Under the pieces are notes generated by a model. The model had not been told where the DNA came from, did no database searches, and worked only from the letters and a program-made list of their open reading frames with translations. Below are positions 31,137 to 64,000 of a stretch of 64,000 nt of DNA, piece after piece (position 1 is the stretch's first letter; the number at the start of each line of letters is the position of its first letter). The stretch is from Sphingobium xanthum (GTDB taxonomy: Bacteria > Pseudomonadota > Alphaproteobacteria > Sphingomonadales > Sphingomonadaceae): positions 310,001-374,000 of the forward strand of contig NZ_JAHKKS010000002.1 in the NCBI RefSeq assembly GCF_019737615.1, written 5' to 3'. The position numbers and the translations under genes are program-made.

Positions 31137-31538
31137 TCAAAAGGGCTGGACCAGCTCCACCTGAATACCGCGCGTCGAGGCCGGGCTCAGGAAATTGCAC
31201 CAGAAGTCGCCCGCACCCTTGATCGGCTCCGGCTCGATCATGCGCATCTCCTGGCTTTCGACCCAGGCCATGGCGGCGCGAATGTCCGGTACTTCGAACG
31301 CGAAATGGTGGACGCCGCCCGCGCCCTTGTTGAAGCGCAGCAGGGGGCCGTCGGTCGCGACGACGAGCTCGATCGGCGTGCCGCCATTCGCCGCCTTGGT
31401 GAAGATGCACCAGCAATGCCAGGGATCGACGAAGCCGCGATAATCCTCTTCCAGCTCGAAGGTCTGCATGAAGCGCTCGGCCTCGTCGAGGCTGGGCGAG
31501 ATCATGCCGACATGGTGCAGGCGATATTGGCTGAACAT
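31137..31538 (-). CDS. VOC-family protein resembling methylmalonyl-CoA epimerase
   Basis: A 133-residue glyoxalase-fold protein with two beta-alpha-beta-beta-beta repeats. The four metal ligands of this family are visible: His in RLHHVGMISP, Glu in PIELVVAT, His in GVHHFAFEVPD and Glu in QVELVQPF. The pattern (HHVG..., GVHHFAFEV, VELV) is closest to methylmalonyl-CoA epimerases among VOC families. Its start overlaps the stop of the upstream SGNH gene by one base, so it is the last gene of the seven-gene cluster. Epimerisation of a 2-substituted acyl thioester would fit the FkbH/ACP genes, but this is inference. Confidence 0.82.
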   Translation of the reverse strand: MFSQYRLHHVGMISPSLDEAERFMQTFELEEDYRGFVDPWHCWCIFTKAANGGTPIELVVATDGPLLRFNKGAGGVHHFAFEVPDIRAAMAWVESQEMRMIEPEPIKGAGDFWCNFLSPASTRGIQVELVQPF

Positions 31539-32587
31539 TAGTGGGTTTCCTCGGCGGCCGTCACGATCGGCGCTAACTTCTCGATCAACCAGGGCGAGAG
31601 CCTGGCGGTGCCGGTGCGCCCGAGATGGTCCTTGTCCATATAGTTGCGATAATCGTCGGCGAGTTGCACCGGTTCCAGCACGGGGCCGATCGCGGTGTAG
31701 AAGCCGGGATCGTCGAAATATTCCTCCGCGCCGCGATAGGTGGGCACGCGCAGGAAGGCGATCGTCACCTTCTTCTCGCGCGCCAGCGCGGCGATGCGGC
31801 GCAGATAATGGCGCTCGACGGCATAGCGCTGGTCGAGCGGGAACAGGCGCAGCTTGCGATCGACGACGGCCGCGGGCGGCGTCGGCCCACCGCGCTGGGC
31901 CGGGTCGATGACGCGCTCGCGGTCGACGAGAATGCCGTCGCCGGTTCTGAAGGTCTCGGTCGGATCGAACGTCAGCTTGCTGTAGATCGCCGGATCGAAC
32001 CGGGTGCTGAGGCGGAAGGCGGACGGGGCCAGACCCTGGATGAAGTAGGCCAGATGGCGGTACGGCACCGTTAGCGCATTCTCGATATAATTGAGATTGT
32101 AGATCGCGGGCGCGCCGAGGATCGCGGCGTCCGTGCCGAGGAAGCGGAAGCCGGGATGACTGAGCGTCGATTCCGCACCGGCCGTCAGCACGATGAGCTT
32201 CACGTCCGGCCGCGTGTTGAGCAGTTGCTCGACCACCGCCCACTGCAGGTCGCGCCCTTCCTGCGGCATACCGAAATTCACGACCGAGACCGGATGGCCG
32301 AGCCGCTGCGAGAGGCCCGCCGACAGCTCGTTGACGCGCGCACTCGCTTCCATGCGGGAGCTGCCGATCATGGCGACGTCGATGGGGCGCTTGTCGAAAT
32401 GCGTGCGCTCATAGACATAGCGCGCGCGGAACAGGATCGTCCCGTCGCCCTGCTGCCAGCGATAATAGTCGTTGTTCGGCAGCAGCATGAGCAGCGCCGT
32501 CACCAGCACCGCGCCGAGCGCCAGCCAGCCGAACAGCCGGAGCGCGAGGCCATTGGGGAGCAGCTCTGTGTCGTCCTGAGCGGTCAT
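31538..32587 (-). CDS. Membrane-anchored SGNH-hydrolase-like protein (AlgX/DltD-type partner of MBOAT)
   Basis: A 349-residue protein with one N-terminal transmembrane helix (LFGWLALGAVLVTALLMLLP) and a periplasmic domain. The SGNH pattern is visible: Ser in AMIGSSRMEAS, Gly/Asn-like block in VVNFGMPQEG, and the C-terminal Asp-His in YMDKDHLG. In alginate and teichoic-acid acylation, a protein of this type takes the acyl group exported by the MBOAT and passes it to the polymer. The MBOAT gene lies seven bases upstream. The ATG at 32587 is preceded by GAGGGGAC. Confidence 0.78.
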   Translation of the reverse strand: MTAQDDTELLPNGLALRLFGWLALGAVLVTALLMLLPNNDYYRWQQGDGTILFRARYVYERTHFDKRPIDVAMIGSSRMEASARVNELSAGLSQRLGHPVSVVNFGMPQEGRDLQWAVVEQLLNTRPDVKLIVLTAGAESTLSHPGFRFLGTDAAILGAPAIYNLNYIENALTVPYRHLAYFIQGLAPSAFRLSTRFDPAIYSKLTFDPTETFRTGDGILVDRERVIDPAQRGGPTPPAAVVDRKLRLFPLDQRYAVERHYLRRIAALAREKKVTIAFLRVPTYRGAEEYFDDPGFYTAIGPVLEPVQLADDYRNYMDKDHLGRTGTARLSPWLIEKLAPIVTAAEETH

Positions 32588-32594
32588 GGTCCCC

Positions 32595-34160
32595 TCAGAA
32601 GGCGAAGTAGACGAATTGCGTGCTGCCGCGCGCAACGAAGATGATGCCGAGCATCAGCACGGCACCGGCGATGAGCGTCGGCACGGCGGCGGGCCGCCAC
32701 TCGACGCGGACGGGCGCGACGCCGATCTTCTGCCAGCGCGCCCATTCGAGCACGGGCGTGACGCGCGTCATGATCTGCTGCGTGTTCGGCAAGGCCCAGA
32801 TGATCGCGATGCCGAGCGCGATCAGCGGGAACAGGCCCCAGGCACCGAGCGGGGTCAGCACCGGCCATTGTTCCCAGGGCGATGCGCCGCTCGCGCCGGC
32901 CATGGCGGAGAAGATGCGCCCCGTCGTCGGCAGATCGGCCGAGCGGAACGGCACGATGGCGAGTGCGAAGCACAGGAAAGTGAGCGGAATGCCCCACGGG
33001 ATCTCGCGCTTCGGTGCAGCGGCACCCTTCTCGCCCTTCGCCTTCTTCTTCCGCCGCGCCTTCATCACGAAATTCCAGATCTCGTTGATGACCATGAAGC
33101 TGCCATGCATCGCGCCGAAGACGACAAAGGTCCAGCTCGCGCCATGCCAGGCGCCGATGATGACCATCGACACGAAGCTGGGGATGAGCGTCGCCACGGC
33201 GAGCGTGCCGCCCTTGCCGAGGCGCATATTGGCCGCGAGGCGGGTCAGCGGCACGGCGAGCGGCTGGTAGATATAGCTCTGCACGAAGCGGCCGAGCGTT
33301 ATGTGCCAGCGACGCCAGAGATCGGCGATGCTGTGCGCGCGGAGCGGCGAATGGAAATTGAGCGGCAGCAATATGCCGAACATGCGCGCCACGCCGATCG
33401 CCATGTCCGAATAGCCAGAAAAGTCGAAATAGACCTGATTGGTATAGGCCAGCACCCCGCCCCAGGCGGCGAGGAAGCTCGGCGTCTCGCCCTTGGCGGC
33501 GGCATCGAACATCGGCCCGGTCCAGAGCGCGAAGCTGTCCGCGATCACCGTCTTCTTGAAGAGGCCGATGCCGAAGATCATCAGGCCCGCGAGGATATTG
33601 CCCAGCACGCGCCGCGCCACCGGACGCTCGCGCAGCTGCGGGATCATCTCGCGCGACAGGCTGATCGGCCCGGCGAGAAGCTGCGGAAAAAACAGGATGA
33701 AGGCGAAATAATCGACGATGCGTGGCTGCTCGATGCGGCCGCGCGAAAGGTCGACCAGATGGGCAATCTGCTGGAAGGTATAGAAGGAAATCGCCAGCGG
33801 CAGCGCGATCCGGCCCAGCTCGACGTCCAGTCCGAACGCCGCCGACAGGCTGTCGACGAGGAAGTTCGCATATTTGAACCAGAGCAAGGCCGCGACATTG
33901 GCACTGACGCCGACCCACAAAGCGAGCCGGCTCCATGGCTGCGGAAGCCGGGTGATGAGCAGGCCGCAGACATAATTGAAGGCCACCGAACCGAACAGCA
34001 ATGGCAGGAAATGCGCCGAGCCGCGCGCATAGAAAGCCAGCGTCGCGACGATGAGGAATGGCAGGCGCAGCACATGCAGCCGCGTCAGCGCCAGAACATA
34101 ATATCCGAGCAGGGCTGCGGGCAGAAAGCCGAAGATGAAGACGACCGAGTTGAAGCTCAT
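32595..34160 (-). CDS. MBOAT-family membrane O-acyltransferase (AlgI-like)
   Basis: A 521-residue polytopic membrane protein. The conserved MBOAT regions are clear: FYTFQQIAHLVDLSRG, YFDFSGYSDMAIGVARMFG, RAHSIADLWRRWHITLGRFV with the first conserved His, and MVIIGAWHGASWTFVVFG with the catalytic His in the WHG motif. A lysine-rich insertion (KARRKKKAKGEKGAAAPKRE) follows. The family moves acyl groups across the inner membrane for O-acylation of polysaccharides. It is flanked by a methyltransferase/FkbH/ACP set upstream and an SGNH partner downstream, which suggests the donor is carrier-protein bound rather than acetyl-CoA. Confidence 0.9.
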   Translation of the reverse strand: MSFNSVVFIFGFLPAALLGYYVLALTRLHVLRLPFLIVATLAFYARGSAHFLPLLFGSVAFNYVCGLLITRLPQPWSRLALWVGVSANVAALLWFKYANFLVDSLSAAFGLDVELGRIALPLAISFYTFQQIAHLVDLSRGRIEQPRIVDYFAFILFFPQLLAGPISLSREMIPQLRERPVARRVLGNILAGLMIFGIGLFKKTVIADSFALWTGPMFDAAAKGETPSFLAAWGGVLAYTNQVYFDFSGYSDMAIGVARMFGILLPLNFHSPLRAHSIADLWRRWHITLGRFVQSYIYQPLAVPLTRLAANMRLGKGGTLAVATLIPSFVSMVIIGAWHGASWTFVVFGAMHGSFMVINEIWNFVMKARRKKKAKGEKGAAAPKREIPWGIPLTFLCFALAIVPFRSADLPTTGRIFSAMAGASGASPWEQWPVLTPLGAWGLFPLIALGIAIIWALPNTQQIMTRVTPVLEWARWQKIGVAPVRVEWRPAAVPTLIAGAVLMLGIIFVARGSTQFVYFAF

Positions 34161-34164
34161 GGGG

Positions 34165-35118
34165 TCAGGCAGGCTCGGCGATGATCGAGCAGGTCACGGC
34201 GATCTTCTGGCGGAGCGCCTGCGAGATGCGCTTGGCCTGCGTCGTGTGGGTCGCCATCTCGACGATGCGGAAGCCGCCCTTGACCAGCAGATCGGCCGCC
34301 ATGTCCGGGTTTTCGAGCAGGATGACATGGTCGGGCATCGGCGCGTTGAGCGGCACGTTGACGAACAACACGCCTTTCTTGGAGACCGCGCCGCGCATCT
34401 TCTGGAGCGCTTCGACCGGGTCGTCGAGATGCTCGAGAATGTGACTGAGGATCACGAGGTCATAGGTCTCGCCGTCGGGCTGGACCTGATGCATGTCCTG
34501 AATGCGGAAATGGAGATTGTCGCCCTCGGCGCCGAGCGTCTTGAGCGCATGGCGCGTCTGGGCCAGCGAGACTTCGCTCAGGTCCCAGCCATGCGCCTCG
34601 GACAAGCCGAAATCGGTCAGCGCGAGATAGAGCAACAGGCCATGGCCCGAGCCGACCTCCAGCACGCGGCCGCCGCGCGGCACCCGCGCTTCGAGCCGCT
34701 GGCGGAAGAAGTGCAAAGACGAGGCATGCATGTACCAGAGCACATGGCTGTAGAGCAGCCCGTGCATGTAACGCTCCATGAAGTCGTCATTGCTGTAGAC
34801 ATGGGCGTTCGTCTGCTCGAACGAGCTGTAGCGATAATGACCACTACGGGCGAACTCGAGTTCCTCCTCGCGGATACGATCGCACAGCCAGCGATAATCG
34901 GCGGCGACCTGCGCCTTGCGATCGCCGGCCAGCAGCAGCATCGCGCGGGCGACATGATCGCTGGTCGCCATCATGCCTTCGCTGCGCACGTCGAAGCTCT
35001 TCGAGAGATAGCCGGCATGCTCCGGCCAGGTCTCGACGACGACCTCGCTCAGCGCCAGCAGATTGGGCCAACGAGCTAGCTGGGTGCGGAGGGCCGCAAG
35101 ATCGTCACCGGTCGTCAT
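34165..35118 (-). CDS. Class I SAM-dependent methyltransferase
   Basis: A 317-residue protein whose C-terminal two thirds is a class I methyltransferase: motif I VLEVGSGHGLLLYLAL, the acidic end of strand 2 in GWDLSEVSL, and YDLVILSHILEHLDDPVEALQKM as the post-motif region. The N-terminal 120 residues are helical and not recognised. The start overlaps the stop of the FkbH-like gene (TGATG). In fkbG-J-type gene sets the methyltransferase methylates a hydroxyl of the carrier-bound unit, and the same role is plausible here. Confidence 0.86.
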   Translation of the reverse strand: MTTGDDLAALRTQLARWPNLLALSEVVVETWPEHAGYLSKSFDVRSEGMMATSDHVARAMLLLAGDRKAQVAADYRWLCDRIREEELEFARSGHYRYSSFEQTNAHVYSNDDFMERYMHGLLYSHVLWYMHASSLHFFRQRLEARVPRGGRVLEVGSGHGLLLYLALTDFGLSEAHGWDLSEVSLAQTRHALKTLGAEGDNLHFRIQDMHQVQPDGETYDLVILSHILEHLDDPVEALQKMRGAVSKKGVLFVNVPLNAPMPDHVILLENPDMAADLLVKGGFRIVEMATHTTQAKRISQALRQKIAVTCSIIAEPA

Positions 35119-37010
35119 CAGTTCGTCTGCCCCTCGGCTAGCACATTGACCTTGATGGGCAGATCGGCCGGCTCATAGCCAGCCAGATCGAGCGCCCAAT
35201 GGCTCGTCCCGTCCGCGTCCTCGCTCGTGCGCGTGAAACCGAGCTTGGCAAAGAGATCGCGCACGAGGCCGTTCTTCTTGGTCGGGATGTAAGTGGCGGT
35301 GAGCGTGTCCGCCCCCTCGCCTTTCGCGGCGGCTGCAACTTCGTTCAGGACCGACTGCTCGACGCCCCGGCCAAGCACGCGGCAACTCATCAGCCAGGTG
35401 TCGCAGGACCAGCTCTGCGGGCCCTTGTCGAAGATGATCACCGAGATCATGCCATTATCGCCGAACTTGTCCTCCAGCCGCACCTGCAGGGTGAACTTGG
35501 CGGGATCGCGCTCGAACGCCTCGACATCATTCTCGCCATAGCGGCGGGTTGTGACGTTGAACTGGTTCGACTTGTTGACGAGCTGCGAGATGCGCGCACG
35601 GCCGACCGCATCGAACGGCAGCGCGGTCATCACCATCTCCAGCGAAGCCAGATATTCGGCGAGGTTCGTGACCGATCCCTGCGCGACGCGGCGCTCGGCA
35701 TTGGCGCGATACATCTCGGCGCGCTGGCGATCCTCTGCGGAGAAGGACACTGCCTCGAAATAGCCCGCGCGGGCAATCATCGCGGGATAGTCTGCCGGGT
35801 CCTCGCCCACTTCCGGCACGGCCACCTCAGGCAGCTCGCGGCGGACGATCTCGCGCTCGGCGGGATTGTCGTCGAGGAAGACCAGCGAATCCGTGCCGAT
35901 ATTCAAGGTCGCGGCGATGTCGCGGATATTGCCGGCCTTGTCGTTCCAGTTGGCGATGAAGCAGGCGATGTGCGGCTCGCGCAGCAGCATCTCGGCATGT
36001 TCCTTGAACGGGAGCAGCGCGTTGCTCTCCTCATTCTTCGAGCAGACGGCGAGAATGATGCCGCGCTCGCGCAGGCTGAGGGCCAGCCGCTGGATCGCGA
36101 CATAGGCCTCGCCCATGCCATTGCCGTTGCCGAGCACGATGCCTTCGAGGCCATCGTCGCCGATGACGCCGCCCCACAGCGTATTGTCGAGATCGAGTAC
36201 GAGGCACTTGCGCGCCTTGCCGCGCGCGGAGCCAATGACGCGGCAGACATAGTCCGCGTAGAGGGTCGTCGCGTCCGGCGAGAACGGCATTTTAGCGCCG
36301 TGCCAGAGGCGGATGTCCATCCAGCGCGACAGGCCGACGGTGGCGGCGGCATGGGCGATATCGACGATGAGATCGCCTTCGCCCAGCACCGAGGGCAGCC
36401 GGCGATTGAACGCATCGACCATGGCGCGGGCGCTGCCGTCGACCTGCGTATCGAAACTGCCGAACAGGGCCTCGGCCGGAGGCACAAGCGTCTGGAAGAT
36501 CGCCGCCGCGCCGATACGGCCGCGCACGCCCTTGGCCAGCAATTCGGCTTGCGCGATCGCGGCATCGACGCTCGCCGGGCCTTCGCCCTCGCCCAGCGCC
36601 GGGAGATCGAGCCCGAAGAATTTCGCATCGAGCGCGAAAAGGACGAAATCGACCGATCCGGCCTTCAGCCCGGCATTCTCGTCCAGCACGGCCTGCGCGA
36701 CTTGGCCATAAGGCACGGTCTCCAGCGAGAGCAGCAGGCCGTGGCGCAGGCCGGTCGCGACCAGCGCATCGGCGATGTAGTCCAGCGTGTGCGAGCCGAT
36801 GAGGCCAAGCCGCACGCGCGAGAAATCGCTGGTGCGGGCAATCTCGTCGAGATGCTTCGTCACCACCTTGCCGAGCTGGGCAAGCTGAGTGAGATCCATC
36901 GCCGTCGCCGCCAGGCGGCGCAGCGTCGCCTGATCCGGCGGCGCATCGCGCAGGGCCCGCACTTGCGCGCGGAAATCCTCGGGCGGTTGCCTAAGCCAGG
37001 GCAGATACAT
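35118..37010 (-). CDS. FkbH-like HAD-IIIC protein (acyl loading onto ACP)
   Basis: A 630-residue protein in three parts: an N-terminal SGNH-like domain (about 1-240, with LGLIGSHTLDYI), a HAD domain with the nucleophile in LDLDNTLWGGVIGDDG (first Asp near residue 273), the Lys-region VCSKNEES and acidic FLDDNPAERE, and a C-terminal GNAT-like domain (QVRLEDKFGDNGMISVII). This is the FkbH layout; characterised members dephosphorylate 1,3-bisphosphoglycerate and load the glyceryl unit on an ACP. The ACP gene is 24 bases upstream, and a methyltransferase gene overlaps its end. Confidence 0.85.
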   Translation of the reverse strand: MYLPWLRQPPEDFRAQVRALRDAPPDQATLRRLAATAMDLTQLAQLGKVVTKHLDEIARTSDFSRVRLGLIGSHTLDYIADALVATGLRHGLLLSLETVPYGQVAQAVLDENAGLKAGSVDFVLFALDAKFFGLDLPALGEGEGPASVDAAIAQAELLAKGVRGRIGAAAIFQTLVPPAEALFGSFDTQVDGSARAMVDAFNRRLPSVLGEGDLIVDIAHAAATVGLSRWMDIRLWHGAKMPFSPDATTLYADYVCRVIGSARGKARKCLVLDLDNTLWGGVIGDDGLEGIVLGNGNGMGEAYVAIQRLALSLRERGIILAVCSKNEESNALLPFKEHAEMLLREPHIACFIANWNDKAGNIRDIAATLNIGTDSLVFLDDNPAEREIVRRELPEVAVPEVGEDPADYPAMIARAGYFEAVSFSAEDRQRAEMYRANAERRVAQGSVTNLAEYLASLEMVMTALPFDAVGRARISQLVNKSNQFNVTTRRYGENDVEAFERDPAKFTLQVRLEDKFGDNGMISVIIFDKGPQSWSCDTWLMSCRVLGRGVEQSVLNEVAAAAKGEGADTLTATYIPTKKNGLVRDLFAKLGFTRTSEDADGTSHWALDLAGYEPADLPIKVNVLAEGQTN

Positions 37011-37034
37011 CAGTTTGTTCCCACCGGCCCGGCG

Positions 37035-37277
37035 TCAGCCGAGCTTTTCGAGGATCTTGGCCACGAGCTCGCCGACATTGGCGAACCCCTCGATCTCGCC
37101 GACCGTAAACCGCACGCCGAACGCCTGCTCCACAGACACGATGAAACGCACGTTGCTCAGGCTGTCCCACTCCTCAATGTCGTCGGCGGTGAGATCGTCC
37201 GAATAGGCAATATCGTCTTCGTCGAAGGCGTCTTCCATCAACTCGACAAGGCGACTGATGACTTGTTCACGGTCCAA
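37035..37277 (-). CDS. Acyl carrier protein
   Basis: An 80-residue acidic four-helix protein. The phosphopantetheine attachment Ser is in EEWDSLSNVRF (DSL motif). No ATG is available at a sensible place; TTG at 37277 follows AGGGAGACG at good spacing and gives a normal ACP length, whereas an upstream TTG at 37334 would add 19 unlikely residues. It lies between an SGNH lipoprotein gene and the FkbH-like gene, and is likely the dedicated carrier for the unit made by FkbH. Confidence 0.83.
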   Translation of the reverse strand: MDREQVISRLVELMEDAFDEDDIAYSDDLTADDIEEWDSLSNVRFIVSVEQAFGVRFTVGEIEGFANVGELVAKILEKLG

Positions 37278-37330
37278 ATTACGTCTCCCTTGGGCCAGAC
37301 ATAGTGCCTTATGCAGGCAAAACTCGACAT

Positions 37331-38776
37331 TCAATTAACAAGCGGCGGCCGATAAGCGCGAATTTCCGCGATTTTCGGTGCGTCCGCCGCGACAGTCATC
37401 TCCACTTCATGACGGCCATTGGGCAAGCCGGTTGCGATCAGATGACGCTGTTCGATGCCGCCGCGCGGGAAGGCGACGGCAGCCTGATCCCCGCACATGA
37501 AGTATCGCGACCAGTGAAGCTGATAGCCTTCCGGCACGCCCTTGCCCGATTTGACCACGCCATAAGCGAGGATCCAGTCCTGCGGATCGATCGCGATGCG
37601 GCCGGACGGCGACGTGAAAGGCTCGCTCGCCTTGCCGGCGCCGTCCGGTCCGGCGAGCCTGCTGGTGAGCGTGAAATCGAAACTTTCCTGCTTCGGATCG
37701 AGATGCGTGACGGTGGCCGTCCAGTTGTCCTCCTTGTGATAGGAGGGATCGATGCGCACTTGCGCGAGCGCCGGCCAGTCCGGGACATTGGGCAGGCGCG
37801 AGACGCGGCTGGTGAGCCAGCAGCCGTCCAGATCCTGCGGCGCCTTGCCGTCGACGGTGACACGCAGCTTGCCGTTCAGGGCTCCGGCGGCAACCAGTTC
37901 GAAGCGGTTGCCTTCGAACGTGTAGCGCTGGGTCGTGCCCGGTGCGGGCGGCGCGAGTGTCGTCACGGCGGGGCTGGTCGGGGTCTTGCCGTCCGAGCGG
38001 GCAACGAGGCTCTCGAACCAGGTGGTGAAGAGGCCGGCCATGAGCTTCCAGCCGCGCTCATTGGGATGCGGCATGTCGGCGATGAGCGCCTTTATCGGCA
38101 GGTTGCGGGCCTTGAGATAAGCGTCCCAGCGGTCGCGGCGCGGCTCCATGGCGAGGTCGTATTTCGCGGCCATGGTCGGCACCCAGGTGCGCGACATGAA
38201 ATCTTCCCACTTGGCCTGCTTGAAGCGGATATGGCCGGTGCAGCCGGGCGGCGGCGACCAGCGCAGGTGGATGCCTTCGTCGCAGATCGGCTCGACCGCC
38301 GTTGTCACATGATCGGTCTGGACGATGATGTCGGCCGCGGTCTTCGAGCGGAAGAGCTGGATGATCCGCTCATAGGCGCGGTGATCGCCATAAACGTGGA
38401 AGACGATGAGATCGGGCGTGAACTCGGCAATGTCGCGCTCGGCATTGCGCTCCAGACGGACGGCATCGAAGCCGCCGAGCGCCATATTGCGCGCGTCGAA
38501 AATGACGTTCGGATAGGCTTCGCGCAGGCGGGCGAGCGCGGGATCTGTCCAGGCCGGGGCGCTGATCGACTGGCCGTAGAAGAGGACACGCAGCACCCTG
38601 GGCTGGGTCGGCGTGGCGCTGCGGATGATCGAGAGCGTGCGCGCGATCGCCTTCACCGGATCGGGCGGGCTCGGCGGCGCGGCGGGCGTGGTCGAGCAGC
38701 CGGCGATCAGGAGAAAAGACAGCGCAGGCAAGCATTTGCCGAGCTTTGCCAGAGGCGCGAAACGGCCGCTCATCAT
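37331..38776 (-). CDS. SGNH/GDSL-hydrolase-like lipoprotein
   Basis: A 481-residue protein with a lipoprotein signal ending in LIAGC, so it is anchored at the inner or outer membrane and faces the periplasm or outside. The SGNH blocks are VLFYGQSIS (Ser), MALGGFD (Gly), and IADMPHPNERG, where Asp-x-x-His completes the triad. The C-terminal 200 residues are beta-rich and may bind sugar. It is the first gene of the seven-gene minus-strand cluster and could deacylate, or transfer, acyl groups on an extracellular polymer. Confidence 0.8.
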   Translation of the reverse strand: MMSGRFAPLAKLGKCLPALSFLLIAGCSTTPAAPPSPPDPVKAIARTLSIIRSATPTQPRVLRVLFYGQSISAPAWTDPALARLREAYPNVIFDARNMALGGFDAVRLERNAERDIAEFTPDLIVFHVYGDHRAYERIIQLFRSKTAADIIVQTDHVTTAVEPICDEGIHLRWSPPPGCTGHIRFKQAKWEDFMSRTWVPTMAAKYDLAMEPRRDRWDAYLKARNLPIKALIADMPHPNERGWKLMAGLFTTWFESLVARSDGKTPTSPAVTTLAPPAPGTTQRYTFEGNRFELVAAGALNGKLRVTVDGKAPQDLDGCWLTSRVSRLPNVPDWPALAQVRIDPSYHKEDNWTATVTHLDPKQESFDFTLTSRLAGPDGAGKASEPFTSPSGRIAIDPQDWILAYGVVKSGKGVPEGYQLHWSRYFMCGDQAAVAFPRGGIEQRHLIATGLPNGRHEVEMTVAADAPKIAEIRAYRPPLVN

Positions 38777-42928: not shown

Positions 42929-43013
42929 CGCTTTCAATCGCGTTGTGACTTCAATGGCCCAAACGTCGAAAGTAGCTCCGAAAGCATCTCGCTCTGCCGC
43001 GTCCGACGATTGA
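42846..43013 (+). CDS. IS passenger ORF 4, small hypothetical, antisense to the transposase end
   Basis: A 55-residue protein (TNLKEAREQGKMSQFLKEHQAEQG ending in SRSAASDD) that starts in another frame inside ORF 3 and runs 80 bases into the 3' end of the transposase gene on the opposite strand. Its pattern (charged helix, then an MAQTSK-like stretch and acidic end) is reminiscent of small proteins I have seen next to such transposases, but I cannot name a family. Confidence 0.5.
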   Translation: MTNLKEAREQGKMSQFLKEHQAEQGNPDAFNRVVTSMAQTSKVAPKASRSAASDD

Positions 43014-43836
43014 AACGATACTCAGCTTCCTTCGCATACTTCCACAAGTGCTTGCCGCTCACGTGAATGTGAGTGCCGCTGATCGTCCGCTTTAGCTGCG
43101 ACCAAAAGCCCTCAATGCTGTTCGTCGAAACACCCGATTTGGTGACGTATTCCCCGGCGCTGTGATTGACGGTCTTGTGCCAATAGCGGCCCTTCGTCAG
43201 TTCAAGGCCGCTGTAGCTCACGAAGTCGTCGGTATGGACTTCCGTGTAGGGCTTCACGTTCTCAATGACGTGGTGCTGCAGAGTGCTTTTGCGGCGATTG
43301 GGAATGACCTTGGTAATCAGCGAGCCGTCCCGTTCGACCATGCCCATGATCGCCGTCTTGTTGCTCTTGCTGCCGGTGCCCGCGCCATGCTCGACGCCCC
43401 CGATATAGGTTTCGTCCACTTCGACAGTCTTGAACGGGCCGCCAAGCGGTGCCTCGCCATCAACGTCAGCCATATGCTCGCGGATCAAGTGCGCCATGCG
43501 CCACGCCGTCTTGTAGGTCACACCGAGCTGGCGCTGTAGTTCCTTGGCCGCGACGCCGTTGCGCGTTGTCGTGAACAGGAAGATCGCATAGAACCACATC
43601 TGGAGCGGGGTGCGGGTCTGCTCGAATGGCGTACCGACAGTCGGGTGCAGATGATGGCCGCAGAACTGGCAGGAATAGGCACGCTCCGCCTTGATGCGGA
43701 ACCACTTGGAGGCGCGGCCGCACGAGGGGCATTCGAAGCCCTGTCCGAAACGGATTTCGAAAAGGTGACGCAGGCAAGCTTCGTCATCCGGAAACTGCTT
43801 GAAAAACTGCGCGATAGTTTGGGGCTTCTTACTCAT
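42934..43836 (-). CDS. IS1595-family transposase
   Basis: A 300-residue transposase: N-terminal zinc ribbon (CPSCGRASKWF ... YSCQFCGHH), a helix-turn-helix-like region (NGVAAKELQRQLGVTYKTAWRMAHLIREHM) and a DDE-type catalytic core with VEVDETYIGGVEH (first Asp), VHTDDFVSYSGL (second Asp) and STNSIEGFWSQLKRTISG, where this family uses Asn/Glu (NSIEGFW). The reading frame is intact. Confidence 0.92.
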   Translation of the reverse strand: MSKKPQTIAQFFKQFPDDEACLRHLFEIRFGQGFECPSCGRASKWFRIKAERAYSCQFCGHHLHPTVGTPFEQTRTPLQMWFYAIFLFTTTRNGVAAKELQRQLGVTYKTAWRMAHLIREHMADVDGEAPLGGPFKTVEVDETYIGGVEHGAGTGSKSNKTAIMGMVERDGSLITKVIPNRRKSTLQHHVIENVKPYTEVHTDDFVSYSGLELTKGRYWHKTVNHSAGEYVTKSGVSTNSIEGFWSQLKRTISGTHIHVSGKHLWKYAKEAEYRFNRRTRQSEMLSELLSTFGPLKSQRD

Positions 43837-55972: not shown

Positions 55973-57871
55973 TTAGCCGAGATTGAAGAGCCGCGTCAGT
56001 GACTTGTCGAGCATCACAAGCTGCCAGAGCAGGCGGCCGTGGTCCGACGTGCCGTTGCGATGCGCCTCGGCGATGCGGGCGATGCGACGCATGTCGAACC
56101 ATTCGGTCCGCGCCAGTGCCGAGCCGCCGGCGATCGCCCTCGCCTCTCCCGCCAGCGCGCCGCGGAACCACTGGCTGACCGGCGTCGAGAAGCCCATCTT
56201 CTGGCGATAGAGGATATCCATCGGCAGCATGTCCTCCATCGTCTTCTTGAGGAGATATTTGCCCGAGCGGCCATGGATGCGCTGGCGCACTGGCAGGCGC
56301 GCGGCGAACTCGATGAGGCGGTGATCGAGCAGCGGCTCGCGCGCTTCCAGGCTCACGGCCATGCTCATGCGGTCGGTCTTGGTCAGGATGTCGCCGGGCA
56401 GCCAGATCTTGAGATCGGCATATTGCGCGCGGTCGATCGGGTCACGGGCGGGCGCGTCGCGCATCGCGGCGACATAGCGGTCCTCGGCGCGGTGGCCATT
56501 GAGGCCCTGCCTGGCGAGATCAGTGAAGATCGCGGCGCGCTGCGCTCCGGTGGTGATGCCGACCGAGGTCGCATAGGCCTCGCCCGCATCAGCCGCGAGG
56601 CCGAGCAGGGTCGTCTTGGCGCGCAGGAAGCGCGGCGCCCAGTCGGCCTTGGGATAGATGGCGCCGAGCGTGCCGAACACGCCACGCCGCAGAGGTGCGG
56701 GCACGAGGCCGCGGATCATTTCCTCGCGATGCTGAAAGAGATGGCGCCGATAGCCGGCAAAGCCCTCGTCCGCGCCATCGCCCGAGAGCGCGACCGTCAC
56801 CGTCTCGCGCGCCAGCTCGCAGACCCGGAAGGTCGGCAGAGCAGAAGCGTCGGCGAACGGCTCGTCAAAATGGTCTACGAGCTTGTCCATCAGGCCGAAA
56901 TCATCCGGCGAGACGACGCGCGTGCGATGATCGGTGGCGAAACGGCGCGCGATCCGCTCGGCATAGTCGGTCTCGTCCAGCGCAGCGACGTCGAAGCCGA
57001 TCGTGCAGGTCTTGACCGGCTGGCTGCTCGCCTCGGCCATCAAGGCGACGACGGTGCTGCTGTCCACGCCGCCGGAGAGGAATGCGCCGAGCGGCACGTC
57101 CGCAACCATGCGCGAGCGCACGGCCTCGCGCAGGCGGCCGAGAAGCTCGTCCTCCAGATCCTCCTGCTTGCCGCGCTCGCGATCGGAGAAGCTGATGTCC
57201 CAATAGCGGCGCGGCGGCGGCAGCGGGCGGCCACGAATGGCGAGCAGGGTCTCGCCCGCACCGAGCTTCTTGACGCCCTTCACGATCGACGTGTCGTCCG
57301 GCACGTAGCCGTAGGCCAGATAATCCTCGATCGCCGTCAGGTCCGGTACGCGGCGCAGGCCCGGATGGGCGAGCAAGCCCTTCAACTCCGACGCGAAGAT
57401 GAGGCTGCCATCGGCCAGGGTCGCATAATGCAGCGGCTTCACGCCGAAGCGGTCGCGCGCCAGCCAGAGCGACTGGGTGCGCTGATCGTACAGCGCGAAG
57501 GCGAACATGCCGTGCAGCCGATCGACCACGCCCTCGCCCCATTGGCGCCAGCCATGCAGGATGACTTCGGTATCGCTGTTAGTACGGAAGACATGGCCCC
57601 TGGCTTCCAGCTCCGCCCGCAGCGCGCCGAAATTGTAGATCTCGCCATTGAAGGTGATGACGACATCGCCCTCCGGTGTCGCCATGGGTTGGGCGCCACC
57701 GCCGAGGTCGATGATCGAGAGGCGCAGATGGCCGAGGCCGACGCCGGTGGCGCTCCACACGCCCGAGCCGTCAGGGCCGCGATGCTCCATCGGCGCGAGC
57801 ATCGCGCGGACGCGCGCTTCGTCCACGGGCTTGCCGGTCTCGACGAAGAAAATGCCTGCTATGCCGCACAT
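55973..57871 (-). CDS. XrtA-system amidotransferase (asparagine-synthase-like)
   Basis: A 632-residue class II glutamine amidotransferase with N-terminal Cys (MCGIAGIFF), FNGEIYNFGALR and a C-terminal AsnB-type synthetase domain with the pyrophosphate loop FLSGGVDSSTVVAL. Its place next to exosortase A marks it as the amidotransferase of the XrtA/PEP-CTERM exopolysaccharide group (exosortase A system-associated amidotransferase 1). It is the last gene of the locus and may amidate a uronic acid of the polymer. Confidence 0.88.
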   Translation of the reverse strand: MCGIAGIFFVETGKPVDEARVRAMLAPMEHRGPDGSGVWSATGVGLGHLRLSIIDLGGGAQPMATPEGDVVITFNGEIYNFGALRAELEARGHVFRTNSDTEVILHGWRQWGEGVVDRLHGMFAFALYDQRTQSLWLARDRFGVKPLHYATLADGSLIFASELKGLLAHPGLRRVPDLTAIEDYLAYGYVPDDTSIVKGVKKLGAGETLLAIRGRPLPPPRRYWDISFSDRERGKQEDLEDELLGRLREAVRSRMVADVPLGAFLSGGVDSSTVVALMAEASSQPVKTCTIGFDVAALDETDYAERIARRFATDHRTRVVSPDDFGLMDKLVDHFDEPFADASALPTFRVCELARETVTVALSGDGADEGFAGYRRHLFQHREEMIRGLVPAPLRRGVFGTLGAIYPKADWAPRFLRAKTTLLGLAADAGEAYATSVGITTGAQRAAIFTDLARQGLNGHRAEDRYVAAMRDAPARDPIDRAQYADLKIWLPGDILTKTDRMSMAVSLEAREPLLDHRLIEFAARLPVRQRIHGRSGKYLLKKTMEDMLPMDILYRQKMGFSTPVSQWFRGALAGEARAIAGGSALARTEWFDMRRIARIAEAHRNGTSDHGRLLWQLVMLDKSLTRLFNLG

Positions 57872-57882
57872 CGCCGCTGCGC

Positions 57883-59445
57883 CTAGCGGATCGCGAGGCT
57901 GCGGTCAGCCAAATCTTCGATGGGGCCGAGCGCGGTCAGGAAATCGGCAAGCGCCTGTGCCGCGTGCGCCTCACCGTCCGGCCCTTCGGATATCGGGGCG
58001 CTGACGAGAATGGCTGCCGCGCGCTGGTCGCGGCCGAGCAGGCGGACCTTCAGCGTCTCCAGCTTCACGCGGCCGGCTTGGCCCGTGAGAACGCCGCCGA
58101 CGCGATAGAAGCTGTAGACAAGCCGCCGCTCGCCATGCGGACCCTGGATGATCTCGCCACGGGCATGACGCGGCGCGCTTGCCGCAGGCGCGGCCCAGGT
58201 CCAGTCGCCCTCCCCGTCCGGCGCGGCGGCGCCCTGACCGAAACCGACCAGCTCCTTGCCCTCGGCCTGATAAGCGAAGCGCACGATGGCGAGATCGACG
58301 AGGCGGTCCGCGCCGTCACCATATGGGATGACGTACAGACCATCGGCCCCGGTGAAGAAGGGCTCCCAATAGGGTGCGGCCGAGATCGGGAGCCGGTGCC
58401 AGCCCGGAACCGCCGGCGCGATGGCTTCGGCCGGCAAGGGCTGCGCGAGTGCGCGGGACGCGGCCGACCAGCTCATCGGCGCGACCATGATCACCGCCGC
58501 TGCCAGCATCAGGCCCCAGCCAATGCCGCGCCGATCCGCCGCGCCTTGCAGACGTGCAGGATCGAACCACTGCTCGAACGGCGAGCGATCATAGAAAGGA
58601 AAGCCGATGGCGAGCATTGCCATGATCACGAGCGCGAAGAACAGCCAGCCGTAAAGCACATGATCGACCACGACGGCCGAAGCCACGCTGCTGTGATAGG
58701 CGATGAGGATGATGCCGAAGGCGCGCACGCCGTTGGCAAGCAGGCAGAAGATCAGCGCGCTGCCAATGAACAAAGCCCGCCTTGTCATGCTCTTGAAGCA
58801 AAGATGCGCGACGAGCGTCGCGAAGGCGGCCATGGCGATGAGGAAGCCGGTGCCGCTGCACGCCTCGGCCACGCGGAAATAGCCGTTTGGCGTGCTGATG
58901 AAGATGCCGCTGATCTCGGCGGGCACGCCGGCCAGCCAGAGCAGATGGATCGCCATTTTTGCGGTCACGATCTGCAAAGTTGGCTCGGCCTCGGTGCCGA
59001 CCGGAATCATGAAGAAGGCATAGAAGATCGGGAATGCCAGCGCGCGACCGACCGCGGGGCCGAGCGCCGAGAGCACCAGCCCCTGCGCCATGATGACGAG
59101 CGCGGCATGGCGGAACAGCGCCACGCCGGCAGCCCAGCCGAGCAGCCAGGCGAAGGCGCCGACGCCGAGCCAGACGAGGCCGAGCCACCAGCCTTGCGGC
59201 GTCAGCTGTGCCAGTCCTGCGCGACGCTGCCAGACCATCCAGAAGATGATCGCGGGCAGGAAGATGCAGTGGCTGTAGGGCGTGCTGTTCGTCCAGACCC
59301 GGACCAGATCGGCCAGATCGGCATGGAAGAGCATCAGGTAGAGCGCGGCGAGCAGGCCCAGCCGGACGAGCGACTCCCGCCAGCCCGTCGCTTCGCGCAG
59401 GACCAGATGATAGAGGTTCGGCCGCGAGACCGGGACGGCGTTCAT
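57883..59445 (-). CDS. xrtA: Exosortase A fused to an EpsI domain
   Basis: A 520-residue membrane protein. The first about 290 residues form a polytopic exosortase: NTSP-like start (WTNSTPYSHCIFLPAIIFWMV), putative nucleophile Cys in VAEACSGTGFLIAMAAF, Arg in ANGVRAFGIILIAY and His in VVVDHVLYGWLFF. The periplasmic C-terminal half (GWHRLPISAAPYWEPFF ... RRLVYSFYRVGG) is an EpsI domain. It cuts C-terminal PEP-CTERM sorting signals. No PEP-CTERM substrate is seen in this window. The base after CSGT is Gly where many homologues have Arg or another polar residue. Confidence 0.88.
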   Translation of the reverse strand: MNAVPVSRPNLYHLVLREATGWRESLVRLGLLAALYLMLFHADLADLVRVWTNSTPYSHCIFLPAIIFWMVWQRRAGLAQLTPQGWWLGLVWLGVGAFAWLLGWAAGVALFRHAALVIMAQGLVLSALGPAVGRALAFPIFYAFFMIPVGTEAEPTLQIVTAKMAIHLLWLAGVPAEISGIFISTPNGYFRVAEACSGTGFLIAMAAFATLVAHLCFKSMTRRALFIGSALIFCLLANGVRAFGIILIAYHSSVASAVVVDHVLYGWLFFALVIMAMLAIGFPFYDRSPFEQWFDPARLQGAADRRGIGWGLMLAAAVIMVAPMSWSAASRALAQPLPAEAIAPAVPGWHRLPISAAPYWEPFFTGADGLYVIPYGDGADRLVDLAIVRFAYQAEGKELVGFGQGAAAPDGEGDWTWAAPAASAPRHARGEIIQGPHGERRLVYSFYRVGGVLTGQAGRVKLETLKVRLLGRDQRAAAILVSAPISEGPDGEAHAAQALADFLTALGPIEDLADRSLAIR

Positions 59446-60683
59446 GCCGCCCGTGCGGGCGAACGATCGCCGGACAACAGAGAGGCGAGCGGTGCCATGG
59501 CCGCTGCCCAGCTGTAGCGCTGCTCAACGCGGACGCGCGCTGCGGCGCCGATCGCGGCGGCACCGGCGGGATCGGAAAGCAGGGAAATGACGAGGTCCGC
59601 TTCGGCTTCGGGCGTGGGGGCGACGATCAGATCGCGGCCATCGGTCGCATCGATGCCTTCCGCTGCTTCGCCTGAAGCGACGACGGGTTTCGCCATCGCC
59701 ATGGCCTCAAGGATCTTGTTCTGGATACCGCGCGCGATGCGGAGCGGCGCGACGACTACATCGGCAGCGGCGAGCCAGGGGCGGACATCGTCCACCGCGC
59801 CGGTCACCAGCACACCGCCGGTGCCACAGAGCGCACGCACCGGCGGCGCCGGATTGCGGCCGACGATGGCGAAGCGCGCGTCGGCATGTACGGCGCGGAT
59901 CTTCGGGAGGCTGCGCTCGGCGAAATCGATCACCGCTTCGACATTGGGGCGGTAGTCCATCTGCCCGGTGAAGACGATCAGCGGTCCAGTGCCGCGCTCT
60001 CCGGGCGACAAGGGCGCAAAAGCCGCTTCTTGCGCGAAATAATCGAGCGCGACGCCGTTCTCGAGCGCCTGCACGCGGTCGGCGGGAAGACCGTTGGTCT
60101 GCCGGAACAGACCGGCTTCGGCATCGCTCACGAACAGGGAGACGTCCGCCTGCATTGCCACGGCTCGCTCATAGTCGGCCAGAATGCGCCCCTCGCGGCG
60201 ATGGACCCAGCCCATCGGACCGCCCTTGGTCGCGCCATAGGCCGTGAACTTGGCGGAATCGATATCGACGAAATCCATGATGAAGCGGCAGTCGGCGGGC
60301 AATCCCTGCGCATATTGCGCCACTTGTCCGGAGAAGCCGAACACGGTGCTGATCGGTCGCTCGGCGAGTGTCTTGCGGACATAAGCGTGCATCTGCGCGC
60401 TCTCGAACAAGGCGATGGACAGCGGATCTTGCCGGGCGAGGCCGCGCAGCGCCGCCATCGGTTTGTTGCCGGGGCGGCGCACGACGCACTGCGTCGCGCT
60501 GATCTGCGCCATGTCGGCAGCGAAGCTCTCGTCCCGTTCGTCATCGGCGAAGCAGCCGACATGCACGGGGGCCAGTGCCGCCAAGGCGCGCAGCTCGTTG
60601 TGCGAACGGATCTTGTCGCCCCGATCCGGCGGCCAGGGGATGCGATGAGCGAGGAAAAGGATTTCCCCCTGCGCGCCGGGCAT
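59442..60683 (-). CDS. XrtA-system glycosyltransferase (TIGR03087-like)
   Basis: A 413-residue GT4-type glycosyltransferase: ILFLAHRIPWPPDRGDKIRSHNELRAL at the start is the usual sequence of the PEP-CTERM/exosortase-A sugar transferase; the C-terminal half has IVFTGQMDYRPNVEAVIDF and APLRIARGIQNKILEAMAMAKPVVAS, the donor-binding E-x7-E region. ATG at 60683 overlaps the stop of the upstream gene. It adds a sugar to the exopolysaccharide precursor. Confidence 0.87.
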   Translation of the reverse strand: MPGAQGEILFLAHRIPWPPDRGDKIRSHNELRALAALAPVHVGCFADDERDESFAADMAQISATQCVVRRPGNKPMAALRGLARQDPLSIALFESAQMHAYVRKTLAERPISTVFGFSGQVAQYAQGLPADCRFIMDFVDIDSAKFTAYGATKGGPMGWVHRREGRILADYERAVAMQADVSLFVSDAEAGLFRQTNGLPADRVQALENGVALDYFAQEAAFAPLSPGERGTGPLIVFTGQMDYRPNVEAVIDFAERSLPKIRAVHADARFAIVGRNPAPPVRALCGTGGVLVTGAVDDVRPWLAAADVVVAPLRIARGIQNKILEAMAMAKPVVASGEAAEGIDATDGRDLIVAPTPEAEADLVISLLSDPAGAAAIGAAARVRVEQRYSWAAAMAPLASLLSGDRSPARAA

Positions 60684-61741
60684 CAGCCGAGGCCCCGCGC
60701 GATCCAGGGCCCGATCAGATCGGCCACGCTTTTGGGCAGCGCCTTCCACAGCGCGACCTTGCGGGCATATTGCGGCGAGAGCGGATTGATGTCGCGCGGC
60801 TCGTGACCCGGCGCGGCGTGGATGTGATAAGCGAGCGGCGTTGGCTCGAAGCCCCAGTTCTTCTTGTAGTTGGCCGTGCCGGTGCCGACTTTCGACCGGC
60901 CGAAATCGAACGTGTGGCAGCCGCGCGCGCGGCCACGCTGCGTCAGCGCGAAATAGGCGATCTCGTTGGAGCGGGCGTGGCGCGCATTGCGATCGGCGCC
61001 GGCCCAATAGGGCATGACCTTGCCGCCATGGTAGAGCGCCGCGACGGCCGTCAACGGCTCGCCATCCTTCGAGACCAGCACGATCTCGGCGGCATCGCCG
61101 AACGCATCGAGCACTTGCTCGAACATCCCGCGGGGGAAAACCGGCGTGCCAAGATTATGCACCGTGCGGCAATAGAGTGCGTAGAAGGGATCGCGCACGC
61201 TCTGGTCCGAGCCGAAGCGGATGTCGAGTTCGTTGGCGAGGCCCTTGCGGACCTCGGCGCGATGCTTGCGCGGGCAGGCTTCCAGCTCAGCCTCGTCATC
61301 GGCCGCGATCGGGCGGGTGAAGCCGAGATAGGCGTCGGCCTTGGTGATCCAGCCCGCGCCCGGATTGTCGCCGCCGCGCAGCTCGATTGTCGGGCAGGAC
61401 CAGCTCGCGGCGAGGCTGACCGCGCGCGCCGCCAGCGCATCGGCGACCGCTTTGCTCTCCGCCAGGATACCGCCATCGACGGCGAAACCGGAGGAGACCA
61501 GCGCGCGGCCGAAGAGCGGGCTGTGGATGACATTGAGCGGAAGCAGGCCCGCAATCGCGCCGGTCGCGTCGCGCGCCACCAGCATTTCCGCGCTCTGGCC
61601 ATTGCCGCGTGCGACCGCCTTGATCCAGGCCGGGCGATGGAACGGCGTCGACGCCGGATGCGCAACGACCCATTGCTCGATCTGCGCCACGCTCTGCGCA
61701 TCTTCGAGATCGACCTGGCTGATGAGGAGGTCGGTTGCCAT
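60683..61741 (-). CDS. XrtA-system FemAB-like protein (GNAT fold)
   Basis: A 352-residue protein of the FemAB-related family that accompanies exosortase A: FHRPAWIKAVARG, CPRKHRAEVRKGLANEL, and FDFGRSKVGTGTANYKKNWGFEPTPLAYHI. FemAB relatives move amino acids from aminoacyl-tRNA; the exact reaction in this locus is not known. Translationally coupled to the glycosyltransferase. Confidence 0.85.
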   Translation of the reverse strand: MATDLLISQVDLEDAQSVAQIEQWVVAHPASTPFHRPAWIKAVARGNGQSAEMLVARDATGAIAGLLPLNVIHSPLFGRALVSSGFAVDGGILAESKAVADALAARAVSLAASWSCPTIELRGGDNPGAGWITKADAYLGFTRPIAADDEAELEACPRKHRAEVRKGLANELDIRFGSDQSVRDPFYALYCRTVHNLGTPVFPRGMFEQVLDAFGDAAEIVLVSKDGEPLTAVAALYHGGKVMPYWAGADRNARHARSNEIAYFALTQRGRARGCHTFDFGRSKVGTGTANYKKNWGFEPTPLAYHIHAAPGHEPRDINPLSPQYARKVALWKALPKSVADLIGPWIARGLG

Positions 61742-61755
61742 GTCCGGCCAATGTC

Positions 61756-62619
61756 TCAATGGACGACCGGGAAAGCGACGGCGCGGGCGCGCTCATTGGC
61801 GACGAAGCTGTCGATCCGTCCCCAGCGGAAATCGCCGAGCAGCCGCTCCAGCTTGCCCGCCATCGCGCCGAGATTGGTGTAGTGCCGTACTTTCGAGCGC
61901 AGCGGCGCATTCGGCACGCGCGGCTGGCCGGGATCTATCTCCCACGGGTGGAAATAGAGGATCGCGGGCCGCTCGTCCTGCTCGGTCACCTGCTTGAGTG
62001 CCCAGCGCGACAGGCCATAAGGCAGCAGGCGGAAAAAGCCCCCGCCCCCGGCCGGCAGCACGCGCGAGCCGAGCCGCGCGGTCGTCACCGGCAATTCGAC
62101 GAGATCGCTGCCCGCGACGGGCAAGAAGGAAAAGCGTGGCGCCTGCGGCCAGCCATAATGATCATGCACGATCGGCGCGACACTGCTCGAATAGGTATAG
62201 CCCGCCTCGGCGAGGACCGGATGGGCCCAGGGAGTGCGCTGATCGATCGAAAAGCTCGGCGCGCGATAGCCGGTGACCTTCACGCCGCCCGCCTGCTCCA
62301 GCAGGTCGCGGGCTTTCGCGAGATCGGCGCGGAATTCGTCCGCATCCATGAGGAACACGCGCTTGTGATCATAGCCATGACTGGCGAGTTCGTGCCCGGA
62401 CTCGACGATCCGGCAGATCAGCGCCGGATGGCGCTCGGCGACCCAGCCCAAGGTGAAGAACGTGCCGACCACGCCCGCCTGCGCGAACATATCCAGCACG
62501 GCTTGCGTGTTGCGCTCGACCCGGCTCTCGCAACCGTCCCAGGCGGCACGATCGATGACGCGCTCGAACGCGCCAACCTGAAACCAATCCTCAATGTCAA
62601 CAGACAAGCCATTGAGCAC
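61756..62619 (-). CDS. XrtA-system polysaccharide deacetylase
   Basis: A 287-residue CE4-type deacetylase: SVDIEDWFQVGAF with the metal Asp pair, SHGYDHKRVF giving the HxxxH metal ligands, RAPSFSID, and ILYFHPWEIDPGQPR at the end, which is typical of the XrtA-associated group. It removes acetyl groups from the extracellular polymer or its precursor. Begins 37 bases after the ATPase gene. Confidence 0.9.
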   Translation of the reverse strand: MLNGLSVDIEDWFQVGAFERVIDRAAWDGCESRVERNTQAVLDMFAQAGVVGTFFTLGWVAERHPALICRIVESGHELASHGYDHKRVFLMDADEFRADLAKARDLLEQAGGVKVTGYRAPSFSIDQRTPWAHPVLAEAGYTYSSSVAPIVHDHYGWPQAPRFSFLPVAGSDLVELPVTTARLGSRVLPAGGGGFFRLLPYGLSRWALKQVTEQDERPAILYFHPWEIDPGQPRVPNAPLRSKVRHYTNLGAMAGKLERLLGDFRWGRIDSFVANERARAVAFPVVH

Positions 62620-62656
62620 AGGTCATTCCCTCGATTCGAGTACGCGCGGCGCGCTC

Positions 62657-63799: not shown

Positions 63800-63821
63800 G
63801 TTCGTTGCGTCTCCGGGTCGG

Positions 63822-64000
63822 TCAGAACTGATAGCGTAGCCCGAGCTGGGCAAGCAGAGAAATGAAGGCTTCCTGGCCCTTGCGATCGATCGAGTCGACG
63901 CCGATGGCGGCAGAAGCCTGCAGCCGCCGCCAGATCGTCCGGCGATAGCTCGCATTGGCGCCCATATTGGTCACGTCCCCGACTCCGCTGATCCCCGAGT
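63822..64000 (-). CDS. Outer-membrane beta-barrel protein of the XrtA locus, C-terminal fragment
   Basis: The frame runs to the window edge; about 59 codons are visible, ending GLRYQF, the Phe-terminal signal of outer-membrane barrels. The sequence alternates polar and non-polar residues (ASYRRTIWRRLQASAAIGVD). In XrtA loci the gene before the ATPase is the TIGR03016-type outer-membrane protein, which fits. It lies 22 bases before the ATPase start. Confidence 0.75.
   Translation of the reverse strand, partial: SGISGVGDVTNMGANASYRRTIWRRLQASAAIGVDSIDRKGQEAFISLLAQLGLRYQF

Follow-up and report, generated by a model that had tools for sequence, protein, structure and literature searches.

Seven genes of Sphingobium xanthum probably encode an acylation system that works in the manner of the Dlt system, with an FkbH-type protein in the place of DltA, and that exports a glyceryl-type group onto a surface polymer. 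They lie on the minus strand at positions 31137-38776 of the window, the whole stretch of 64,000 nucleotides that was analyzed. The Dlt system is responsible for the D-alanylation of teichoic acids and consists of DltA, DltB, DltC, DltD and DltX. When the coordinates of the open reading frames (ORFs) were re-read, all seven genes were confirmed, with spacings from upstream to downstream of 53, 24, -1, 4, 7 and -1 bases; the seven-gene cluster on one strand, with spacings from 53 bases to one-base overlaps, that an earlier note on this DNA had reported is thereby borne out. What was observed directly is the set of genes with its motifs, and the fact that FkbH, acyl carrier protein (ACP), MBOAT and SGNH genes remain linked across distant genomes.

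Genomic linkage constitutes a central line of evidence for a joint pathway. We compared the best 80 of 573 confirmed stretches with close FkbH homologues in named genomes (the best-80 set), which come from Alpha-, Beta- and Gammaproteobacteria, Acidobacteria, a Nitrospinaceae bin, Bacteroidetes, Verrucomicrobia, a Mycobacterium and others. An ACP match lies less than 500 bp from FkbH in 68 of the 80 loci, and an MBOAT match lies within 2 kb in 46, on the same strand in 41 of them. Within 5 kb an MBOAT match is found in 50 of the 80, and in 40 of the 58 loci for which 5 kb are available on both sides. Where an MBOAT above 200 bits is located within 3 kb of FkbH (46 loci, from within and beyond the best-80 set), a membrane-anchored ORF with a GxS motif follows on the same strand within 1.5 kb in 37, compared to a background of 11 out of 430 ORFs further out for the same filter. 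Gene order varies considerably. Several Sphingomonadaceae and a Phenylobacterium bin have ACP-FkbH-methyltransferase-MBOAT-SGNH-VOC; Stutzerimonas, Belnapia and others have MBOAT-FkbH-ACP-SGNH (with a sub-threshold DltD match of 19.5 bits for the SGNH gene); and a Hyphomicrobium bin has MBOAT-SGNH-methyltransferase-ACP-FkbH. Since the genes keep their company while their order is shuffled, we argue that they share a function. The nearest relative, locus L042, encodes an FkbH protein with 69% identity together with lipoprotein, ACP, MBOAT, SGNH and VOC genes. The joint carrier route proposed in the earlier note is therefore likely, as the four genes travel together in several phyla and in different orders.

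Within the family of the window, FkbH is sporadic: at E <= 1e-20 it was detected in 20 of 199 genomes, and in none of the three other genomes of the genus. The MBOAT gene adjoins FkbH in 9 of the 11 family genomes with a close FkbH (E <= 1e-80), and none of nine loci of more distant family FkbH proteins has an MBOAT or ACP match. In a sample of 398 genomes from the phylum, with up to three candidates scored per genome, at least 111 had MBOAT matches (E <= 1e-60) and 52 had FkbH matches. No FkbH was seen in the 19 readable stretches around 20 high-scoring MBOATs without a listed FkbH neighbor, and three of these 19 loci (L150, L151 and L162) carry an ACP. Another 20 FkbH loci, chosen mostly for having no listed MBOAT, yielded an MBOAT in nine cases and an ACP in 17.

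The loading side of the proposed pathway consists of the FkbH-type HAD-IIIC protein (630 aa, 35118-37010), a predicted ACP loader, and a stand-alone ACP whose gene sits 24 bases upstream. FkbH scores 305.8 bits against TIGR01686, well above the cut-off of 146.65, and D273, D275 and T277 of its DxDxT motif are kept in all 20 aligned homologues, as is C543; C323 is kept in 17 of the 20. The ACP (37035-37277) comprises 80 aa from its ATG, or 99 aa if a TTG start is used, and matches the PP-binding family PF00550 at 27.1 bits (cut-off 20.8). Its Ser39, the predicted phosphopantetheine site (codon 37161-37163), lies in a W-D-S motif and is invariant across the 85 aligned rows. Members of the FkbH family load a glyceryl group from 1,3-bisphosphoglycerate on an ACP, and in known pathways the products are diversified downstream, according to passages of a published account (PMC7489565). 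A lesser precedent for surface glycans is Campylobacter cj1302, an FkbH gene described in part of another source as belonging to a flagellar glycan locus (PMC7099621).

The MBOAT (521 aa, 32595-34160), a predicted transmembrane acyl transferase, is the single MBOAT match in the whole genome. It matches PF03062 at 83.2 bits (cut-off 27), and its best NCBIfam model is DltB (TIGR04091), at 169.8 bits against a cut-off of 375. A profile search of the PDB at E <= 0.01 recovered two distinct sequences, both DltB (E 1.4e-39 and 5.5e-40); this weighs little against kinship with AlgI or PatA, whose MBOATs may be absent from the file. Its H286 and H339 correspond in the alignment to H289 and H336 of DltB. 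At the C-terminus lies the hexapeptide FVYFAF (32598-32615), whose Tyr518, the predicted acyl-tyrosine shuttle, is invariant in two alignments (9 of 9 and 20 of 20 homologues). Because carrier-free MBOATs keep the same tyrosine, it marks the type of system and not the donor. In the portions of PMC12148441 available to us, a tyrosine hexapeptide of this kind carries the acyl group in PatA, and the described MBOAT/SGNH pairs with such a C-terminus modify envelope polymers.

The donor might instead be recorded in the helix that follows the RWH motif. MBOAT/SGNH systems other than Dlt are described as using acyl-coenzyme A (acyl-CoA) and no carrier protein (PMC12148441, in part), and in the DltB-DltC structure DltC rests on DltB helix HC, from Met302 to Met309, with Lys312 and Arg317 (PMC11035591, in part). 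The RWH motif and the next helix (residues 284-316, encoded at 33213-33311) align with this region, helix HC itself corresponding to residues 299-314, straight after R284-W285-H286. The sequence at this place is DY(L/V)Y-LGG(N/S)R in most carrier-free MBOATs and SYIYQPLAVPLTRL in the window MBOAT, which, like DltB, has no LGG. Among 113 MBOATs, LGG(N/S/Q) after RWH is missing in 68 of the 70 with FkbH or ACP nearby and present in 33 of the 43 without carrier genes (Fisher p 2.4e-17, uncorrected for relatedness). The two exceptions are L120, from a Bacteroidetes bin, and L186, in which FkbH lies on the opposite strand and no ACP is found. In 20 held-out loci, chosen by FkbH and MBOAT match positions before the motif was seen, it was absent in all nine carrier-linked MBOATs and present in all 11 others. 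Over 132 rows, 122 agree (78 with carrier and without motif, 44 with motif and without carrier), eight have neither and two have both; here L068, with FkbH at a distance of 3.0 kb, counts as carrier-linked after reassignment, and L127, whose contig stops within the motif, is excluded. The presence or absence of LGG(N/S) thus appears to be a good predictor, with a causal role that is unproven, and the sequence of the donor-side helix points away from acyl-CoA as the donor of the window MBOAT. Eight divergent FkbH-linked MBOATs that score less than 200 bits to the profiles (L049, L053, L059, L061, L108, L118, L171 and L179) also have no LGG(N/S), and most of those read at the C-terminus finish in a Tyr-x-x-Phe tail.

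Phylogeny groups most of the FkbH-linked MBOATs together. In a first tree, in which the unlinked rows came only from the family of the window, 46 of 47 fell in one clade (SH-aLRT 97). In a larger tree of 97 MBOATs, to which phylum-wide unlinked rows had been added, one clade (SH-aLRT 93) holds 48 rows: 45 FkbH-linked MBOATs, L150 and L151, and L158, near which no carrier gene was seen. Rows below 200 bits were left out of both trees (12 and 16, respectively). Seven of the 52 FkbH-linked MBOATs lie outside the main clade, so the pairing of FkbH with MBOAT arose or moved more than once. In L150 (3307-10770) and L151 (5376-11711) the MBOAT is accompanied by a DltA-like ligase (326 and 358 bits to DltA models, below the cut-off), a DltC-like ACP and AlgX-type SGNH proteins. 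Because these DltA-like loci nest in the FkbH-linked clade, it appears that a single MBOAT branch can combine with either FkbH or an AMP-forming ligase as the loader while the carrier protein stays. Both loci, which come from one family, also contain a gene resembling acyl-CoA dehydrogenases, a family assignment that was checked in L150.

The fourth core component is a membrane-anchored SGNH-like protein (349 aa, 31538-32587), predicted to act as a periplasmic transferase. It lacks a Pfam match and has an N-terminal helix and a GSSR motif (GSS77R); Ser77 and His321 are invariant in 11 rows. Its predicted model is confident (pLDDT 85.5, pTM 0.86), and the three PDB entries that it matches at E <= 0.001 are DltD structures (best E 8.9e-05), with a poor superposition (TM 0.37, root-mean-square deviation 13.6); further matches are more DltD or D-alanyl-lipoteichoic acid synthetase entries. 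In two other loci, L022 (11486-15214) and L023 (5569-9273), the MBOAT is flanked by two SGNH paralogues, and one member of each pair has another residue in place of the Asp that precedes the block V His.

ACP, FkbH, MBOAT and membrane SGNH protein form the core, and the remaining three genes are additions, because relatives of the lipoprotein occur in 1 of 80, of the methyltransferase (above 100 bits) in 13 of 80, and of the VOC protein in 7 of 80 loci of the best-80 set, one of these seven being weak. The methyltransferase (317 aa, 34165-35118) has a conserved N-terminal region and matches Methyltransf_23, Methyltransf_12, Methyltransf_31, Methyltransf_25, Methyltransf_11 and other general class I families; a family search of the window protein gave no match to Methyltransf_3, the family to which we take FkbG to belong. 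The FkbG-type methylation invoked in the earlier note finds no support in these matches, and the gene is absent from L042. Relatives are present in 17 FkbH loci overall. The VOC protein (133 aa, 31137-31538) matches Glyoxalase_4 at 59 bits (cut-off 27) and the methylmalonyl-CoA epimerase model TIGR03081 at 56.4 bits, below its cut-off of 114.95, and in the PDB it is matched best by methylmalonyl-CoA epimerases (1jc4, E 8.1e-09). H9, E57, H78 and E128, kept in 10 of 10 aligned rows, align with H12, Q65, H91 and E141 of 1jc4, which we take to be the metal ligands; the residue aligned with 1jc4 Glu48, presumably catalytic in methylmalonyl-CoA epimerase, is variable, and Glu31 is conserved instead. 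In the FkbH loci L169 and L174, methyltransferase relatives have as neighbors VOC-like genes that belong to a different subfamily and score 35-37 bits against the epimerase model, short of its cut-off. The lipoprotein (481 aa, 37331-38776) carries the lipobox LLIAGC and, by eye, GQS and DxPH motifs; its only relative in the best-80 set is in L042. With a sub-threshold CE2_N match (20.1 bits, cut-off 27.9) and no PDB sequence match at E <= 1, its putative assignment to SGNH, like that of the membrane protein, rests on less than the other family calls, and a predicted model (pLDDT 42.6) was too poor for use in judging its fold. The methyltransferase and the lipoprotein look accessory.

Based on these observations, we propose that FkbH moves a glyceryl group from 1,3-bisphosphoglycerate to the phosphopantetheine arm of the ACP, where the VOC protein may epimerize the alpha carbon and the methyltransferase may methylate the bound group, both steps being optional. 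In the way that DltC binds DltB, the loaded ACP would dock on the MBOAT's cytoplasmic helix; Tyr518, in the hexapeptide at the C-terminus of the MBOAT itself, would then receive the acyl group, following the example of PatA. The membrane SGNH protein could then take the acyl group on Ser77 and transfer it to a hydroxyl of an extracytoplasmic polymer, with the SGNH lipoprotein serving as an accessory transferase or esterase. If this is correct, surface esters are not necessarily restricted to acetyl-CoA or ATP-activated amino acids as their sources, a glycolytic intermediate could be directly esterified to envelope polymers, and a readable sequence feature predicts whether an MBOAT takes its donor from CoA or from a carrier protein. 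Enzymes of the FkbH type yield the D form of the glyceryl group. It is possible, though we hold this fuller version only tentatively, that the operon represents an undescribed and widespread branch in which a glycolytic acyl phosphate feeds a DltB-like MBOAT through FkbH and ACP without an AMP-forming ligase, in which the donor helix separates carrier-fed from CoA-fed enzymes, and in which the VOC protein turns the D-glyceryl thioester into the L form. Such an L form would supply L-glycerate esters like those on gellan. Gellan is stated to carry L-glycerate in part of a published source (PMC9104527), and a product of this kind would be in line with an epimerase encoded next to FkbH. The passages of a 2015 review that we consulted name only one verified acetyltransferase for gellan and do not give the origin of the glycerate esters of gums (PMC4443731). 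The operon would then provide a candidate gene set for the glycerate esters of bacterial gums, whose gelling such substituents control.

Several observations weigh against the proposed glyceryl export. No MBOAT was found within 5 kb of FkbH in 18 of the 58 well-flanked best-80 loci, nor in the stretches of 11 of the 20 further FkbH loci (two of them on contigs shorter than 6 kb). About one third of close FkbH loci are hence without a nearby MBOAT, and the module is not obligate. The earlier note had considered a joint pathway unlikely if FkbH and ACP genes mostly occurred without MBOAT and SGNH genes; among close homologues the majority have an MBOAT, but those 18 loci and many FkbH genes in the phylum-wide sample are without one. 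The note's other ground for doubt, an MBOAT that works with acetyl-CoA alone, runs counter to the sequence of the donor-side helix. The motif association loses significance once relatedness is considered: six supported independent pairs (2.8 with, 1.0 against, 2.2 without a difference) gave a median p of 0.625, and we did not retain LGG(N/S) as proof of carrier use despite its strong raw counts. A single origin of the FkbH-linked MBOATs was likewise given up, as 10 changes of the label are required on the larger tree. The DltB-DltC complex has a salt bridge between DltC Glu40 and DltB Lys312/Arg317 (PMC11035591, in part) that is not kept as a conserved contact, the window proteins having ACP Arg44 and MBOAT Ala309. 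The weak superposition of the modeled SGNH protein on DltD and the lack of polysaccharide genes next to the operon point in the same direction. Finally, both the glyceryl identity and the polymer acceptor are inferred.

The likeliest alternative, though still an improbable one, keeps the carrier-fed export and changes its cargo, which could be another small hydroxyacyl or methoxyacyl group made by FkbH or the added enzymes. FkbH products are known to be varied downstream (PMC7489565, in part), and in this operon the additions are a methyltransferase and a VOC protein. Genes for a MaoC dehydratase and an SDR protein lie close upstream of FkbH in L054, L057, L062, L105 and L119, placed between ACP and FkbH, with the ACP also labeled beside them in the first three; this suggests variants that alter the acyl group. 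On the other side, none of the seven genes encodes FkbI or FkbK, the dehydrogenases of the methoxymalonyl route, and L042 has no methyltransferase. It is less probable still that the operon joins two independent pairs, an ordinary acetyl-CoA-dependent MBOAT/SGNH O-acetylation system and an FkbH/ACP pair that feeds something else. Near relatives of the MBOAT are indeed found paired with SGNH genes where carrier genes are lacking (L122, L123, L124 and L126), a good share of FkbH loci has no MBOAT, and non-Dlt MBOAT/SGNH systems use acyl-CoA (PMC12148441, in part); however, the repeated co-occurrence across phyla and gene orders and the loss of LGG(N/S) in carrier-linked MBOATs argue against independence. 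FkbH-ACP may serve more than one transferase, since FkbH without an MBOAT also occurs in polysaccharide surroundings: L045 has FkbH and ACP matches, no MBOAT match, and a UDP-sugar dehydrogenase and a family 2 glycosyltransferase within 10 kb, and L060 has FkbH without an MBOAT or ACP match and a priming sugar transferase within 10 kb. Production and export of an acylated small molecule or glycolipid, with no polymer decoration, is very improbable: FkbH genes are best known from natural-product pathways, judging by titles and abstract starts, and the window shows neither a glycosyltransferase nor a Wzx/Wzy gene next to the operon between 28 and 43 kb, but the seven genes and their immediate neighbors include no polyketide synthase (PKS) or nonribosomal peptide synthetase (NRPS) gene, the hexapeptide MBOAT/SGNH pairs described so far have envelope polymers as their targets (PMC12148441, in part), and 20 of 91 FkbH loci carry a member of three sugar gene clusters (represented by GDP-mannose dehydratase, RmlD and bacterial sugar transferase), a hint only, as no background was computed.

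In a family search, the genes flanking the operon were identified as a flavin monooxygenase, an MFS transporter and bestrophin. An ORF that resembles an insertion-sequence transposase by eye (42934-43836) lies about 4 kb from the operon. Further along, an exosortase-type exopolysaccharide locus (55973-63955) with asparagine synthase, exosortase EpsH with an EpsI domain, glycosyltransferase and AAA ATPase genes is a possible source of a polymer. As a specific partner of the operon, this exosortase/PEP-CTERM locus (55.9-64 kb) was dropped, since an exosortase is present in 166 of 199 family genomes and hence unspecific.

Titles and abstract starts revealed no paper that joins FkbH with MBOAT export, in a search without most subscription journals and all patents. 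Patents on low-acyl gellan may describe a glycerate-transfer gene annotated fkbH; if so, the system would be less new and the proposed route more likely. Among known systems, the operon resembles Dlt in its carrier protein, its DltB-type MBOAT, its DltD-like membrane SGNH protein and a donor-side helix without LGG(N/S). It differs in having FkbH where Dlt has the AMP-forming ligase DltA, in a shuttle tyrosine peptide that is fused to the MBOAT where Dlt uses DltX, in its genome of Gram-negative type, and in the salt bridge discussed above. The operon probably works like Dlt and yet is not a member of it, because a family search found no DltA ligase among the seven genes and the cut-offs of both the DltB model and the DltC model (NF003464, 17.9 bits for the ACP against 68) are missed. 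With PatAB, AlgI/AlgJ/AlgX and WssHI it shares an MBOAT with a C-terminal tyrosine hexapeptide and a separate SGNH protein; unlike these acyl-CoA-fed systems, it has a dedicated ACP and loader, and unlike the carrier-free MBOAT relatives, which mostly bear LGG(N/S), its MBOAT does not. An FkbH domain protein beside a stand-alone ACP is also typical of glyceryl-ACP and methoxymalonyl-ACP pathways. Here, unlike in the methoxymalonyl and tetronate pathways, these genes are joined to membrane acyl export, and the methyltransferase is not of what we take to be the FkbG family. Family scans of the seven genes and their neighbors found no FkbI/FkbK-type dehydrogenase and no PKS, in agreement with the earlier note, and the seven include no FabH-like tetronate enzyme. 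The VOC protein resembles methylmalonyl-CoA epimerase in its fold, as judged by sequence, and in the four metal-ligand positions, but falls below the family cut-off and does not conserve the position of the second catalytic glutamate. A parallel within the MBOAT tree is provided by L150 and L151, whose MBOATs belong to the same clade and are likewise accompanied by a carrier protein, but which use an AMP-ligase loader and AlgX-type SGNH proteins where the operon has FkbH and a DltD-like membrane SGNH protein.

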